Shown: one piece after another, positions 44,193 through 49,645 of the stretch
Position numbering within the stretch: the first letter of the stretch is position 1
Layout of the letters: the number at the start of each line of letters is the position of its first letter
From: Chloroflexota bacterium
Lineage (GTDB): Bacteria; Chloroflexota; Anaerolineae; UBA4142
Direction: 5' to 3'
Length of the DNA stretch: 51,987 nucleotides
Assembly: GCA_016219275.1 (NCBI GenBank)
Contig: JACRBM010000068.1
Location: 1 to 51,987, forward strand
Notes under the pieces: generated by a model
What the model saw: the letters and a program-made list of their open reading frames with translations, nothing else
Databases searched by the model: none
Told to the model about the DNA's origin: nothing
Made by a program: the position numbers and the translations under genes

Positions 44193-45245
44193 TCACGCAA
44201 ACTGTTTCGGCACGCGCGCGGCAAATAGCACCGCACGGCGTAAACCGCGCGTATCGCCAAAGCGCGCGTGATTGACCCAGCCCAACACTGAAGCCGTAAG
44301 GCAATCGAGAGAAATGCGTCCAACAGCATACTCGCGCATCCGCTCGCACAAGCGGCGTTGGAACGCGATGCCGTTACGCCGCTTCAGCCGGCGATGCGTT
44401 GGGTAAATCGTAAATCCAAGAAACGGCATCCCCGTCGTAACCGGGCGCGCCTGCGCGGTATTTTCGTGCAAGGTCACGCGTAATTGCGCCAGGCGTTTGA
44501 TGATCGCGTTCTTCCAATTCCACAAATTTGTTTTCTCGTCCGCAAAGAGCAAAAAATCGTCCACGTAACGAACATATCCCTCGCATTTCAGTTCCCGTTT
44601 TACAAAATGATCGAAAGGATTGAGATAGCAGTTCGCCCAAAACTGGGACGTCAGATTGCCGATGGGCAACCCGCGCGCGCGATTCACCGCGAACAAATCA
44701 TCGCCGAGAAACCAGGTCATCGCGTACTCGTCGGACAAGACGCCGACGCCGCTGGCGAGAATCTGGTCAATCAGCCACAATACTTGCGCGTCGTTAATTT
44801 TCCGCGCGAGCGTCGCGCGCAGAATCGCGTGGTCAATCGAGGGAAAGAACTGACGCAGATCGCACTGCAAAACGTACCGATACCGCCGCGCGAATTCCTG
44901 CGCGCGATCCAACGCGCGATGCGTTCCCTTCTTCTTGCGATTCGCGTACGAATCGAAGATGAACGACCGCTCGAAAACCGGTTCGATGAGCTGGCAGAGC
45001 GCGTGATGGACGACGCGGTCGCGGAACGGCGCGGCAGAGATCAACCGTCGTTTGGGTTCGTGGATGTAAAAACTGGTGTACGCGCCGGGCTGGTACGTTT
45101 GGTCGCGCAGTTCGCGTTGCAACGCGAGCAAGTTGTCTTCGAGCCGGTACTCGAACGCGGCGGCGGGCGGCTGACCGCGCTTGCCTTTGGCGGCGCGACG
45201 GTACGCGAACAAAAGGTTATCCCAGGAACACAATTCGGTGTACAT
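44193..45245 (-). CDS. DGR reverse transcriptase
   Basis: 350 aa, single RT domain without maturase or endonuclease parts. Motifs: IHEPKRRLISAAPFRDRVVH (RT0/1), YVLQCDLRQFFPSID with catalytic Asp129, GLPIGNLTSQFWANCYLNPF, and YVRYVDDFLLF (Asp229, Asp230). The I-G-x-x-x-S-Q form (195-201) replaces the Q-G-x-x-x-S-P of group II intron and most other RTs and is the DGR signature linked to adenine infidelity. It should copy TR RNA into mutated cDNA that replaces VR. ATG 45245 (MYTELCSWDNLLFAYRRA) matches the usual DGR-RT start. It lies 35 nt after avd, with a GC-rich inverted repeat between them. Confidence 0.97.
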   Translation of the reverse strand: MYTELCSWDNLLFAYRRAAKGKRGQPPAAAFEYRLEDNLLALQRELRDQTYQPGAYTSFYIHEPKRRLISAAPFRDRVVHHALCQLIEPVFERSFIFDSYANRKKKGTHRALDRAQEFARRYRYVLQCDLRQFFPSIDHAILRATLARKINDAQVLWLIDQILASGVGVLSDEYAMTWFLGDDLFAVNRARGLPIGNLTSQFWANCYLNPFDHFVKRELKCEGYVRYVDDFLLFADEKTNLWNWKNAIIKRLAQLRVTLHENTAQARPVTTGMPFLGFTIYPTHRRLKRRNGIAFQRRLCERMREYAVGRISLDCLTASVLGWVNHARFGDTRGLRRAVLFAARVPKQFA

Positions 45246-45280
45246 CGTCGCTTTGTAGCGGCGAGCGGCTCGCTCGCCCC

Positions 45281-45628
45281 CTACGCACTCACCTTGCGCC
45301 AGCCGCCGAGCAAGCGTCCGATCTCGGCAACCATTTCGGCGGCGTGTTGATATTGTCCGGCGGTCAGCCATTCCCAACGCGCGGCGTGCCGCAGATACAA
45401 CCGCACCTTGTCGAGCGATTCGTCCGCGCGATCCAACCGTTCCAACCGCGCTTTGCCGTGCCGATAGTTCGCCTCGTTCAAGCGTTCACTCAAATCGAAC
45501 GCGGCGTCGAGCAAGCGTTGCGTGAACGTGAAACGATGTGCGCGCGGAAAATGATTCGTCATCGGCAACAGCCACGTGATAAAATCGAACGTGCGCGTAA
45601 AGATCGGCATTTCGGCGCGTGAGTTCAT
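45281..45628 (-). CDS. avd: DGR accessory variability determinant (Avd), four-helix bundle
   Basis: 115 aa, helical and very basic. MPIFTRTFDFITWLLPMTNH, FPRAHRFTFTQRLLDAAFDL, LNEANYRHGKARLERLDRAD and LDKVRLYLRHAARWEWLTAG match the bacterial Avd/S23-like four-helix bundle. Avd forms a barrel-shaped pentamer that binds RT and the TR RNA and is essential for mutagenic retrohoming in known systems. ATG 45628 follows TTGGAGAACCCCA; ATG 45610 is an alternative. It lies between TR and RT. Confidence 0.92.
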   Translation of the reverse strand: MNSRAEMPIFTRTFDFITWLLPMTNHFPRAHRFTFTQRLLDAAFDLSERLNEANYRHGKARLERLDRADESLDKVRLYLRHAARWEWLTAGQYQHAAEMVAEIGRLLGGWRKVSA

Positions 45629-45788
45629 TGGGGTTCTCCAAAAATTTGTAGGGGCGGGGTCATCAGCCCACAGACTGGGCGGGGTCATTCAGCCACAGAC
45701 TGGGCGGGGCAAACCCGCCCCTACGTTGCCCACGCCAAGGCGTTTGCCCAGGGCGCGGACACGTTGATATTCGTCCGGCGTGGATAGA

Positions 45789-45819
45789 GACCTTCCAGGT
45801 CTGGGAGACCTGGAAGGTC
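45789..45819. repeat. Perfect 14-bp hairpin
   Basis: GACCTTCCAGGTCT (45789-45802), loop GGG, AGACCTGGAAGGTC (45806-45819). Confidence 0.8.
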
Positions 45820-45937
45820 GTACTGTGCGCGCGGACAGGACTTGACCGCGCTGGCTCTCACACCGCGGCGGCGAATCGCGCGTGAGGCAAATCAGAGATT
45901 TGCCCTACGCCTGACGCACCGCATTTCTGGCAAACCA

Positions 45938-45968
45938 AACCTTCGCGGTCTTGACAACCGCGAAGGTT
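45938..45968. repeat. 12-bp hairpin just past the TR 3' end
   Basis: AACCTTCGCGGT (45938-45949), 7-nt loop, ACCGCGAAGGTT (45957-45968). On the transcribed minus strand it begins 16 nt after TR ends. It also belongs to the AACCTT...AAGGTT palindrome group of the window. Confidence 0.75.
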
Positions 45969-45984
45969 TTGATCGGAGAGCCAT

Positions 45985-46107
45985 GACGACCCGCCACAAC
46001 GCGAAAACCGATGTTGTCATTCCTGTTGTTGGGATGGTTCCTGTTGCGACACGCCGCGCGGACGTTGTTCTGATTGTTGTTCCACGAGCCGCCGCGCAAC
46101 ACGCGGG
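45985..46107 (-). repeat. DGR template repeat (TR)
   Basis: 123 bp. Read on the minus strand in the VR frame it gives [20 protein letters not shown] followed by [17 protein letters not shown]: an Asn-rich run because AAC/AAT codons are the ideal substrate for adenine mutagenesis. The 3' end (45985-46011) is identical to VR and would hold the IMH-like sequence. An 84-codon open frame (45905-46159) covers TR but is not a gene. Confidence 0.96.
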
Positions 46108-46266
46108 TTTCGTTTCCGGTCAGCCCTGCACCCAGATGGATGCGGAGCGAATGTAGCACAAGACACGCCGCGTGGCAAATTAGAGCAAACTGTTTTCACG
46201 CGCACAATATTTTCGGGAACATTGTCCGTTACTTTCGATCTTGTCCGTTGTAATTCCCTCCGCGCG

Positions 46267-46291
46267 CTGGGGGAAACTTAGTTTCCCCCAG
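46267..46291. promoter_or_regulatory. Hairpin downstream of VR
   Basis: CTGGGGGAAA (46267-46276), loop CTTAG, TTTCCCCCAG (46282-46291). On the minus strand it lies 53 nt after the 3' end of VR. Known DGRs often have a hairpin or cruciform shortly downstream of VR that helps target recognition; it could equally be a transcription terminator for the target gene. Confidence 0.5.
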
Positions 46292-46302
46292 ACCCCCTTC
46301 CT

Positions 46303-46344
46303 TCAGAGTCCCAGAGTTTCAGAGGGATCAGAGTTCAGAGTCAG
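46303..46344. repeat. Imperfect CAGAGTT-type tandem repeat at the target gene's 3' end
   Basis: TTCAGAG, TCCCAGAG, TTTCAGAG, GGATCAGAG, TTCAGAG: 7-9-bp units that directly follow VR and supply the last codons (Asp-Ser-Glu-Leu) and the stop of the target gene. Confidence 0.7.
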
Positions 46345-49300
46345 GACGACCCGCCACAACGCGAAAACCGAAGCCGTCACTCCAGTCGTCGGGATGGGCC
46401 CAGAGGCGACACGCCGCGCGGACGAAGTGCTGATTGAGGTCCCACGAGCCGCCGCGCAACACGCGGGGAACATCACCTTCAAGCGATTCGCGACCCTTCG
46501 CTTGTTTCAAGTAATCCTTGTAATTTCCGAACCACTTGGTCTGACACCATTCCCAAACATTGCCCGCCATATCCGTGCATCCGTACGGCGACACACCTTG
46601 CGGAAAGATTCCAACCGCACTCGTCGCACCAATTTTTGTCTCGGCATAATTCGCGTGTTGCGGAGTTAGTTCACCATTCCACGGATAGATACGTGCGTCT
46701 GTTCCCCGCGCGGCTTTTTCCCATTCGGCTTCGGTAGGCAAACGAATCGCGAGTTGCGAGTTGCGAATCGCGGATTGCAAAATCGAATCCCGGATACCAT
46801 TATTCTGAATTCTGAATTCCGAATTCCGAATTCTTTCCGTCAGCCACCGGCAAAAAGCAACGGCTTCGTACCACGACACACCTACAACCGGATGATTGTC
46901 CAAGTTGAACGGGGATGGATAATCAACTTGACGCTCACGCGGTTCGTTATCCCAGCGTCCCTTGAACTTGCCATCGTTCCACCAGCCCGCGGCGATTGCC
47001 TCTTGCCAAAATCGCGCGTCGCAATACCCACCCACGTTTACAAACGCGTTGAACTGGGCGTTTGTCACCGGATATTTACCGATGAGGTACGCGCGCGTGA
47101 TACTCTTTTCTTCGTGTTGCGGAGTTTCGTCATCGCTTGCCATCTTGTCGCGCTTTTTATCGCTCCCCATCGTGAAGGGTCCCGCCGGGATTTCGCACCA
47201 CACAATATCAGGAACCGCCATCCCCAGCCCTTCTCCCGCGCGCAGGGGAAGGGTGGAAACACCGGGACGCGGGTCGCCCAACTTGGCGAGCGCAACGCCG
47301 GCTTCGGCGCGTTCGAGCGGCGCGAGCAAGCCATGCTCGAGCAACGCACCCAAGCGCGGGATGAGCCGTTGGAGGAACACGTCGCCGCCTTCGCGCGTGT
47401 CAGTGTCCGCGCGAATTGCGTCCTTGCCCATTTCTGCCGCGATGTTGCCCGCCCACACGATGCCGCGCCAATCATTGTCATCGCGCGGCTCTGGCGTCGG
47501 ACACAGTTCGTACAGCGCGTCGAGCACCTTGTACTTGTCGCCGCCCGGACTGTACAACAAATGCTCTGCGCCCAGTTGCGCCGCGAGCGCCCATTTATCA
47601 CCCTCGCCCAAGCGATTGCGGAGTTGCCGTCCAAAACCACGTTCGCCCAGTGCGAGGTAACATCCCGCGAGAAATTCTTGAAACGTCCGATGGGCGAACG
47701 TGTACACCGGCTCGGCTTGATCTACTCCGCCGCGCCCCACCAACAATCCGGCGCGTTCGTCCACGTGCCCCAAAAAACGTTCCGCATTCGCGTAACTGCC
47801 GTTCATTTTTTTGGCGAGAATCTTGACGACATCGTTTTTCGGCAAATCCACCGCTTCATTTTTCTTGCCGCGCGTGTGCGCTTCAAACGCGACGCCCCAT
47901 AACGCTTCGAGCAACGCGGCTTCGGAAAGACCCAGTTCGGTCAGCACCGGCGATTCGCCTTGCTTGTGCTTGTGCCAACGCCGCAAAAGAATTTCGACGC
48001 ACCGTTGATACAACACGGCGCGTTCGCGCGGCAATTCCACCTGCGCGGTGTGCACGACCGCCATCGTCGTGAGCAACAGCGGCGTCTGCGCGAGTTCGGT
48101 CAAACGCGCGACGGCGATTTCCAAATCGTCGGCGCGTCGGTCGGCGCGGTCGCGCGGCATCTGCCCCAAATCGGCGAGCGCGCCGTACCACGCGCGCACA
48201 AACGTTTTGATTTTGTCGTCGTCGAACGGCGCAATTGTCACGTCTGTAAACGCGGCAAGCCGCGCGTCGTTTTGATACGAACGGATGCGGCACGTCACCA
48301 GAAAGCGATTGTCGCGATAGTGCGCCGCAAACGCTTCGACCGCTTGACGCGCAAGCCAGCGACGTTCTGGCGCAACCTCATCCAAACCGTCAAAGATAAC
48401 GAGTCCTTCGCCGGCGTCGAGCGCATCCAGCACCAGTGACGCGGCGGCGGCGGCTTCAAATATCTTGTCCACCATTTGGCTGATGTGCGCGCGCACCGCG
48501 TTACAAAACGCACGTTCGCGTTGCTCGGTCGCGAGCGGTTGTAATTCTTTTTCGTCCGGCAGACTCGCCGCCAATTCGCGCAAGAGCACGCGCACTGGCA
48601 ACCGCGCGCCGTGCGTCCATTGCGCCGGCAATTTCGCGCGATCCGACCGCGCGGCAATCAACGCCGCCGCTAAATGGTTGACGAACGACGACTTGCCCGA
48701 ACCTGGGTCGCCGGTGATGACCAAGCGCGCATTTTTATCCGCCGCTTCAAGCACGGAAACCGCGCGCGCGTCATCGCGCCCGGGAAATGCCGCTCGGTCT
48801 TGGCGTTGTTTCTTTTCCTCGTCGGTCAACGGCACGCGCGTCGTCGTGTCGAGCGCGATGTACACGCGGTCGAGTGTAACATCCGCGCGGCGATGCACAT
48901 CGGCATCATCGGCAATGGCAGCGAGTGGGAGTGCGTTGCAGGCGCGTTGCAGATTTTTGAGATAGCGCGTCAAGGCGGCTTGGCGATCTGCGTCGCTCGG
49001 CGCGCGTGGCGCGGGCGGCACTGGCGCGGTCGAAGCGGGAACCGGCGCGGCGCGTTGCGACTTGATTAGCGCATCAATCCACATTCCCAGATGTTGGCGC
49101 ACCAATCGTTCAAAATCCTCCGGCGTGTTAAAGGTGAACACCAAGCCGGGATGCACGCCACTGGGCAAAAACCCGTCAAAGAATTTGTTGACGCGCCCTA
49201 CTTGTTCAATATTGAATTGCGAGCTAGTAATATCTACCGGGCGCGCGCAACGGTAAAACATCACTTTGGGAAAACCATCCCCGCGCGTTGCGCGTTGTCG

Positions 49301-49645
49301 GTACGCCGCTTGAAACTCCTCCTCCGTGCCGGAGAGGTACGGCTCGTTCGTGCGCGGATCATTCGTGTCGGTGGGTTGCCCAAAACGTTGCCACAGAATG
49401 CCGACAAAAATATCCCACTCGTCCGGCGAAAGTTGATCGAAAACCACTTGTTGTGGTCGCCCCACATCCGGCGCAACGTATGTCTCCCAGCGCCAAAGTT
49501 TGAGACGGACACCGGCAATTTGCGCCGCGCCGCCTTTGGCGTTCATCTCGTTCACCGCGCGCGCCACGCGTTCGCGTTCCTCTTTTACATCGCCGGGCGA
49601 AGCCAGGAACACACGCAATTCAGTTTCGGTAATCGTCTTTGGCAT
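46328..49645 (-). CDS. DGR target: DUF4062-NACHT-FGE/C-type-lectin protein
   Basis: 1105 aa. DUF4062 at about 8-120 (LRVFLASPGDVKEERE, DIFVGILWQRFG). A Pro/Ala linker leads to a NACHT-type ATPase: Walker A GDPGSGKSS (312-320), Walker B GLVIFDGLDE (414-423), then helical regions with YTFAHRTFQEFLAGCYLALG. From about 814 an FGE-sulfatase/CLec domain follows: CEIPAGPFTMGSD, YLIGKYPVTNAQFNAFV, LPTEAEWEKAARG and DMAGNVWEWCQ, ending in RVLRGGSW...[10 protein letters not shown], the VR. The two catalytic Cys of formylglycine-generating enzyme are absent (Leu and Val there), so it is a binding fold, not FGE. A heptamer repeat adds about 29 residues before LPTEAEW. It is probably a STAND-type sensor whose tip is diversified. 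ATG 49645 follows GAGGTGGGT. Confidence 0.93.
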   Translation of the reverse strand: MPKTITETELRVFLASPGDVKEERERVARAVNEMNAKGGAAQIAGVRLKLWRWETYVAPDVGRPQQVVFDQLSPDEWDIFVGILWQRFGQPTDTNDPRTNEPYLSGTEEEFQAAYRQRATRGDGFPKVMFYRCARPVDITSSQFNIEQVGRVNKFFDGFLPSGVHPGLVFTFNTPEDFERLVRQHLGMWIDALIKSQRAAPVPASTAPVPPAPRAPSDADRQAALTRYLKNLQRACNALPLAAIADDADVHRRADVTLDRVYIALDTTTRVPLTDEEKKQRQDRAAFPGRDDARAVSVLEAADKNARLVITGDPGSGKSSFVNHLAAALIAARSDRAKLPAQWTHGARLPVRVLLRELAASLPDEKELQPLATEQRERAFCNAVRAHISQMVDKIFEAAAAASLVLDALDAGEGLVIFDGLDEVAPERRWLARQAVEAFAAHYRDNRFLVTCRIRSYQNDARLAAFTDVTIAPFDDDKIKTFVRAWYGALADLGQMPRDRADRRADDLEIAVARLTELAQTPLLLTTMAVVHTAQVELPRERAVLYQRCVEILLRRWHKHKQGESPVLTELGLSEAALLEALWGVAFEAHTRGKKNEAVDLPKNDVVKILAKKMNGSYANAERFLGHVDERAGLLVGRGGVDQAEPVYTFAHRTFQEFLAGCYLALGERGFGRQLRNRLGEGDKWALAAQLGAEHLLYSPGGDKYKVLDALYELCPTPEPRDDNDWRGIVWAGNIAAEMGKDAIRADTDTREGGDVFLQRLIPRLGALLEHGLLAPLERAEAGVALAKLGDPRPGVSTLPLRAGEGLGMAVPDIVWCEIPAGPFTMGSDKKRDKMASDDETPQHEEKSITRAYLIGKYPVTNAQFNAFVNVGGYCDARFWQEAIAAGWWNDGKFKGRWDNEPRERQVDYPSPFNLDNHPVVGVSWYEAVAFCRWLTERIRNSEFRIQNNGIRDSILQSAIRNSQLAIRLPTEAEWEKAARGTDARIYPWNGELTPQHANYAETKIGATSAVGIFPQGVSPYGCTDMAGNVWEWCQTKWFGNYKDYLKQAKGRESLEGDVPRVLRGGSWDLNQHFVRAACRLWAHPDDWSDGFGFRVVAGRPDSEL
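46345..46467 (-). repeat. DGR variable repeat (VR)
   Basis: 123 bp coding for the last part of the CLec fold. Compared with TR, 18 bases differ, changing 13 residues. TR Asn/Arg/Ile codons have become Asp, Leu, His, Phe, Leu, Trp, Ala, Asp, Asp, Trp, Ser, Gly and Phe, so the binding surface has already been diversified. The final 26 bases match TR exactly. Confidence 0.96.
46748..46838. repeat. Heptamer repeat block inside the FGE domain of the DGR target
   Basis: Mixed 7-mers: GCGAGTT, GCGAGTT, GCGAATC, GCGGATT, then TCTGAAT, TCTGAAT, TCCGAAT, TCCGAAT. It codes for IRNSEFRIQNN...SAIRNSQLAI between CRWLTE and LPTEAEW, which are only a few residues apart in ordinary FGE-like proteins. Confidence 0.85.

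Follow-up and report, generated by a model that had tools for sequence, protein, structure and literature searches.

The window analysed here, a 51,987-nucleotide stretch of contig JACRBM010000068.1 from a Chloroflexota bacterium, carries on its minus strand what its sequence identifies as a complete diversity-generating retroelement (DGR): a target gene (46328..49645) with a variable repeat (VR; 46345..46467) at its 3' end, a template repeat (TR; 45985..46107), the accessory gene avd (45281..45628) and a reverse transcriptase (RT) gene (44193..45242), all in one orientation and in the order target-TR-avd-RT, with the target, Avd and RT frames open. An initial annotation had assigned a complete DGR to 44193-46467, a range that does hold RT, Avd, TR and VR but cuts the target gene short, since the system extends as far as 49645. 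Its view of the element as complete is borne out, since the initiation of mutagenic homology (IMH) sequence and a hairpin downstream of VR are present besides these four components; to it we add the identity of the target protein and three further DGRs in the genome.

TR and VR align without gaps at an offset of 360, with 18 mismatches in 123 bp, each of which lies opposite an adenine in the coding-strand TR (minus strand), where there are 28; none of the 95 non-adenine positions is changed in VR. The changes comprise seven A>G, seven A>T and four A>C, and the hypergeometric probability that all 18 fall on adenines is 7.5e-15. This recomputed alignment agrees with the initial annotation in offset and in every count, and the peptide encoded by TR is Asn-rich, as that annotation had said. 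The adenine-restricted pattern recurs in more than 20 related loci; no further TR-like copy was found in the window. Extending the repeats 5' of 46107 brings in more adenine mismatches, but with an accompanying C/T mismatch, and orthologous targets retain EGDxxR coding in that stretch; because of both, we kept the 123-bp limits.

The RT (349 aa from the ATG at 45242, which is probably its start rather than the TTG at 45377) matches PF00078 and has the motifs LPIGNLTSQ, which includes the IGNLTSQ signature noted initially, and YVDD. In a midpoint-rooted tree with two group II intron RTs representing the intron side, it was placed with the DGR-type RTs of BPP-1 (Brt), BalMu-1, ANMV-1 and Fischerella, and the two intron RTs separated from it at support 100/99. 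Grouping with group II introns, which the initial annotation had named as evidence against a DGR, is thus not what the tree shows, and the NCBIfam group_II_RT_mat score (145 bits) falls below the cut-off of 300. Identity is 36% to the BPP-1 RT and 50% to a Fischerella RT, the latter being consistent, at the level of sequence, with clade 5. The Avd homologue claimed earlier scores 100.6 bits against NCBIfam NF033474 (DivGenRetAVD; cut-off 80) and matches Pfam bAvd (PF22296) with E=1.9e-18; its frame is open to an ATG at 45688, with 45628 the likely start. Several long palindromes resembling dispersed intergenic repeats lie between avd and TR (45937-45969, 45788-45820 and 45651-45725), and an Rfam search of the window gave zero matches.

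Cis signals are found at and beyond the 3' end of VR. Its last 27 nt (46345..46371) are free of A, IMH-like, and have their TR counterpart at 45985-46011. At the IMH boundary, VR has C (46344) where TR has A (45984), and related TR/VR pairs show an analogous terminal mismatch at a TR adenine, the VR base being mostly C and sometimes G. Such a terminal mismatch is what a pairing of IMH with IMH*, as in BPP-1, would predict. Directly after VR, overlapping the last codons and the stop of the target gene, come CTCTGA-type repeats of ~7 bp (46300..46344). CTCTGA/TTCTGA repeats follow most related VRs (2.2 per 70 bp, ~50-fold over the background of 0.04) and are nearly absent after TRs (0.10). As a DGR-specific signal they were rejected, since arrays of three copies occur at ~20 other sites in the genome and they are hence non-exclusive. 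Further on, 53 nt past the VR end, is a hairpin with an 11-bp stem, CTGGGGGAAAC-TAA-GTTTCCCCCAG (46267..46291). Hairpins with a stem of at least 9 bp lie within 140 nt of 51% of VRs, compared with 17% of TRs and 3.5% of random windows, and a hairpin downstream of VR is a known feature of DGR targets, for which phages follow a rule of a GRNA loop at a distance of 4-34 bp (PMC3240598). The sequence features by which a DGR is recognised are all found here: mismatches at TR adenines, an RT of DGR lineage (IGxxxSQ, not QGxxxSP), Avd, a target of C-type-lectin fold with VR at its 3' end, an IMH at the end of VR that differs from that of TR (IMH*) and a GC-rich hairpin downstream of VR.

The target is a DUF4062-NACHT-FGE-sulfatase protein of 1105 aa from the ATG chosen by orthologue alignment (1136 aa from an upstream TTG). 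At its C-terminus, the formylglycine-generating enzyme (FGE)-sulfatase domain of C-type-lectin fold (46355..47194; PF03781, E=3.9e-55) contains VR and matches in sequence FGE, EgtB and the DGR-diversified Treponema denticola variable protein (2y3c, E=3e-10). Within VR, 17 A-containing codons lie at the C-type-lectin tip, and 13 residues are changed; substitution at the adenines can reach no stop codon and allows ~2e16 possible proteins. A repeat-derived in-frame stretch (46745-46841; RNSEFRIQNNGIRDSILQSAIRNSQLAIR) that varies across orthologues also lies in the FGE domain. The NACHT NTPase domain (48185..48724; PF05729, E=1.4e-7) is central, and the N-terminus is a DUF4062 domain (49046..49627; PF13271, E=5.6e-6). 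A PDB sequence search with the latter gave no match, and we therefore compared folds: an AlphaFold2 model (pLDDT 90) came closest, at VIA-align Z of about 11 (11.5-11.8 for TIR and DNPH1 chains), to TIR domains (RUN1 with NAD, SPARTA, AbTir) and to the deoxyribosyltransferase-like DNPH1. On this model the domain has a TIR/NDT-like fold and is a predicted NADase effector. Glu110 (codon 49316..49318), in an SGTEEEF motif, begins helix 106-121 of the model, is invariant in 27 aligned DUF4062 domains and is the candidate catalytic residue. A 2026 preprint (PMC13174449) describes DUF4062 as a TIR-like NADase with a catalytic Glu (for reference, KpSwz E97 and TEP1 E1008), antiphage in bacteria and adjoining NACHT in human relatives (TEP1).

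Comparison between species bears on whether VR continues to be rewritten. Between the window and its orthologue in genome G012, TR differs at 3 A and 18 non-A positions, and VR at 22 A and 18 non-A positions; between G019 and G017, the TRs differ at 1 A and 4 non-A positions and the VRs at 22 A and 4 non-A. In G012, where TR and VR are on separate contigs, they differ at 13 A sites and 0 non-A sites. Because TR and VR of one genome agree at non-A sites, VR must have taken up substitutions from TR since the species diverged. From these sequence comparisons, TR-to-VR rewriting is judged to have gone on in the lineage past that divergence, with the A sites still scattering. The earlier proposal that the DGR has been active is upheld by the adenine-only differences and, more strongly, by this concerted non-A evolution, and non-A changes common to TR and VR across species allow activity to be tested without population reads. 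In 6 of 40 cases, against 0.87 expected, an assembly breaks off within a VR or next to one (contigs of G006, G012 and a KSB1 genome), an excess suggestive of population variation, with the caveat that four of the six come from one genome and that repeats also break assemblies.

The genome (6.16 Mb, 107 contigs) encodes four DGR RTs and nine VRs: one in the window, three on contig C96, one on C67 and two each on C45 and C58. The three further DGRs (L043 on C96, L044 on C67 and L045 on C45) have RTs that are 61-62% identical and account for six cis VRs, in a TIR-FGE target on C67 and in NACHT-FGE targets on C96 and C45; on C67 and C45 the gene order is target-RT-avd-TR, as against target-TR-avd-RT in the window. 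Two FGE genes on C58 (L046:5754-5863, at C58:120753, where an internal TAA came up in the family search, and L026:2071, at ~138 kb) resemble the C45 TR with A-biased differences. As they show only 4-5% non-A mismatch to that TR but changes at 17 of its 32 A sites, their sequences make them apparent remote VRs, presumably rewritten in trans by the C45 DGR. Long matches to the FGE domain number 15 in the genome.

A DGR RT was found at E<=1e-60 in 20 of the 60 genomes searched (this one and relatives, whose named records are Anaerolineales/Chloroflexi metagenome-assembled genomes, MAGs). The targets checked are mostly NACHT-FGE, with one kinase-FGE, and a similar DUF4062-region-NACHT-FGE target occurs with a DGR in G122. 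Gene order varies within the RT group of the window, and the DGR unit has therefore often been rearranged. DUF4062-NACHT-FGE genes also occur outside Chloroflexota, in a KSB1 MAG (L142, JAFGEC010000631.1), where a DGR RT and Avd accompany the gene, and in Ca. Magnetocorallium (L159), which makes horizontal transfer likely.

DGRs of this general kind have been described. Multicellular bacteria, including filamentous Chloroflexi, carry multiple DGRs with STAND/NACHT-FGE targets, which have been proposed as antigen sensors and some of which have TIR effectors (Dore et al., 2024; PMC10907252). With the clade 5 (5D) cellular DGRs of that study, such as DGR 3 and DGR 6 of Thiohalocapsa PB-PSB1, the window shares RT, accessory protein, TR, a STAND NTPase joined to a C-terminal, VR-bearing FGE/C-type-lectin domain, and several DGRs per genome; it differs in its N-terminal DUF4062 and single cis target, and its membership of clade 5D is a candidate assignment based on target architecture. 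NTPase-FGS systems (Kaur et al., 2020, PMC7159879; PMC8195603) likewise have a DGR-diversified FGS domain, an NTPase fusion and the logic of a conflict system, but with EAD, MoxR-vWA or VMAP components, DUF4062 being unmentioned in either text. Swarozyc, among the DUF4062 TIR-like NADases, shares the N-terminal domain but binds phage portal through an auxiliary domain of HTH/winged type; no NACHT or DGR is described for it, and retroelements are unmentioned (PMC13174449). The DGR of Bordetella phage BPP-1 (brt, Bbp7/avd, TR, mtd) has the same target with VR, avd, TR, RT and hairpin after VR, but is phage-borne, diversifies a tail fibre and runs target-avd-TR-RT. Among the papers that we searched, none names both DUF4062 and a retroelement. 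The DGR machinery and the STAND/NACHT-FGE type of target are thus already known, and what is new is the effector, DUF4062.

Taken together, the reading that we favour, with reasonable though limited confidence, is that a functional DGR on the chromosome varies the sensor of a nucleotide-binding leucine-rich-repeat (NLR)-like protein with a probable phage-type ligand, a NACHT switch and a DUF4062 NADase output; the target would probably be an NLR-like receptor for abortive infection that hypermutates and has a predicted role in sensing. RT and Avd would reverse transcribe TR RNA with random insertion opposite A, and the A-free IMH, together with the hairpin beyond VR, would direct the cDNA to take the place of VR. 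The tip of the lectin fold, once diversified, would bind a ligand, most likely a protein of a phage or other invader, upon which NACHT would oligomerise and the N-terminal TIR-like domain would hydrolyse NAD+, halting the infected cell in abortive infection.

Several observations weigh against this reading. The DUF4062 Pfam score (26.9) barely exceeds the cut-off of 24.7, and likeness of a modelled fold does not by itself demonstrate activity. The hairpin, with its TAA loop and 53-nt spacing, is outside the phage pattern of PMC3240598, and no defence island was recognised in the neighbourhood of the locus. Moreover, no RT or TR was found in the available flanks of two orthologous targets of 57-62% identity (L120, G001:C20; L121, G002:C401). 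There the DGR may have been lost, may act in trans or may be unassembled, or a pre-existing receptor may have been captured by a DGR elsewhere, a further candidate reading in view of these short contigs and incomplete genomes.

An active DGR on a NACHT sensor could instead help to recognise kin or neighbours, or take part in environmental signalling within a community of filaments, an alternative that we consider unlikely but serious: FGE/C-type-lectin domains bind a wide range of ligands, most of the cellular DGR targets in print are predictions (PMC10907252), and no defence-island context was recognised here. Against it, DUF4062 effectors are reported in antiphage abortive infection (PMC13174449), and sister loci of the same genome carry TIR and NACHT modules. 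Distinctly less probable is a complete but now silent DGR, its VR rewriting confined to the past. A single VR sequence from this organism would suit it, but TR and VR lack any difference at the 95 non-A positions, the non-A changes common to both between species require transfers after divergence, and the RT, Avd and target frames have all stayed open. That the target is a formylglycine-generating-type enzyme whose catalysis is tuned by variation is very improbable despite the strength of the family match (E=3.9e-55), as its FGE domain is fused to NACHT and VR rewrites the C-terminal core segment, which in alignment falls at the active-site end of the FGE fold, where catalysis is unlikely to survive random change. 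The idea that the repeat arose by chance, or by gene conversion from one duplicated FGE 3' end to another, of which 15 long domain matches might offer a supply, has a negligible probability of being correct, being refuted by the adenine restriction and opposed by a non-coding TR adjoining avd-RT and by the repetition of the pattern in related loci.

Beyond the favoured reading of a DGR-diversified, phage-sensing NLR-like protein, we suggest, more tentatively and with the balance leaning slightly against it, that one polypeptide here amounts to a whole NLR-like pathway and serves clonal filaments as an anticipatory abortive-infection receptor that diversifies somatically, within a repertoire of nine VRs, some served in trans. 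Cellular DGR targets have so far been proposed as antigen sensors (PMC10907252); here one chain is predicted to hold a switch, a variable sensor and an effector whose output, NAD+ hydrolysis, can be measured, which would make the immune-sensor hypothesis, with its suspected sensing of phage, testable with one gene.

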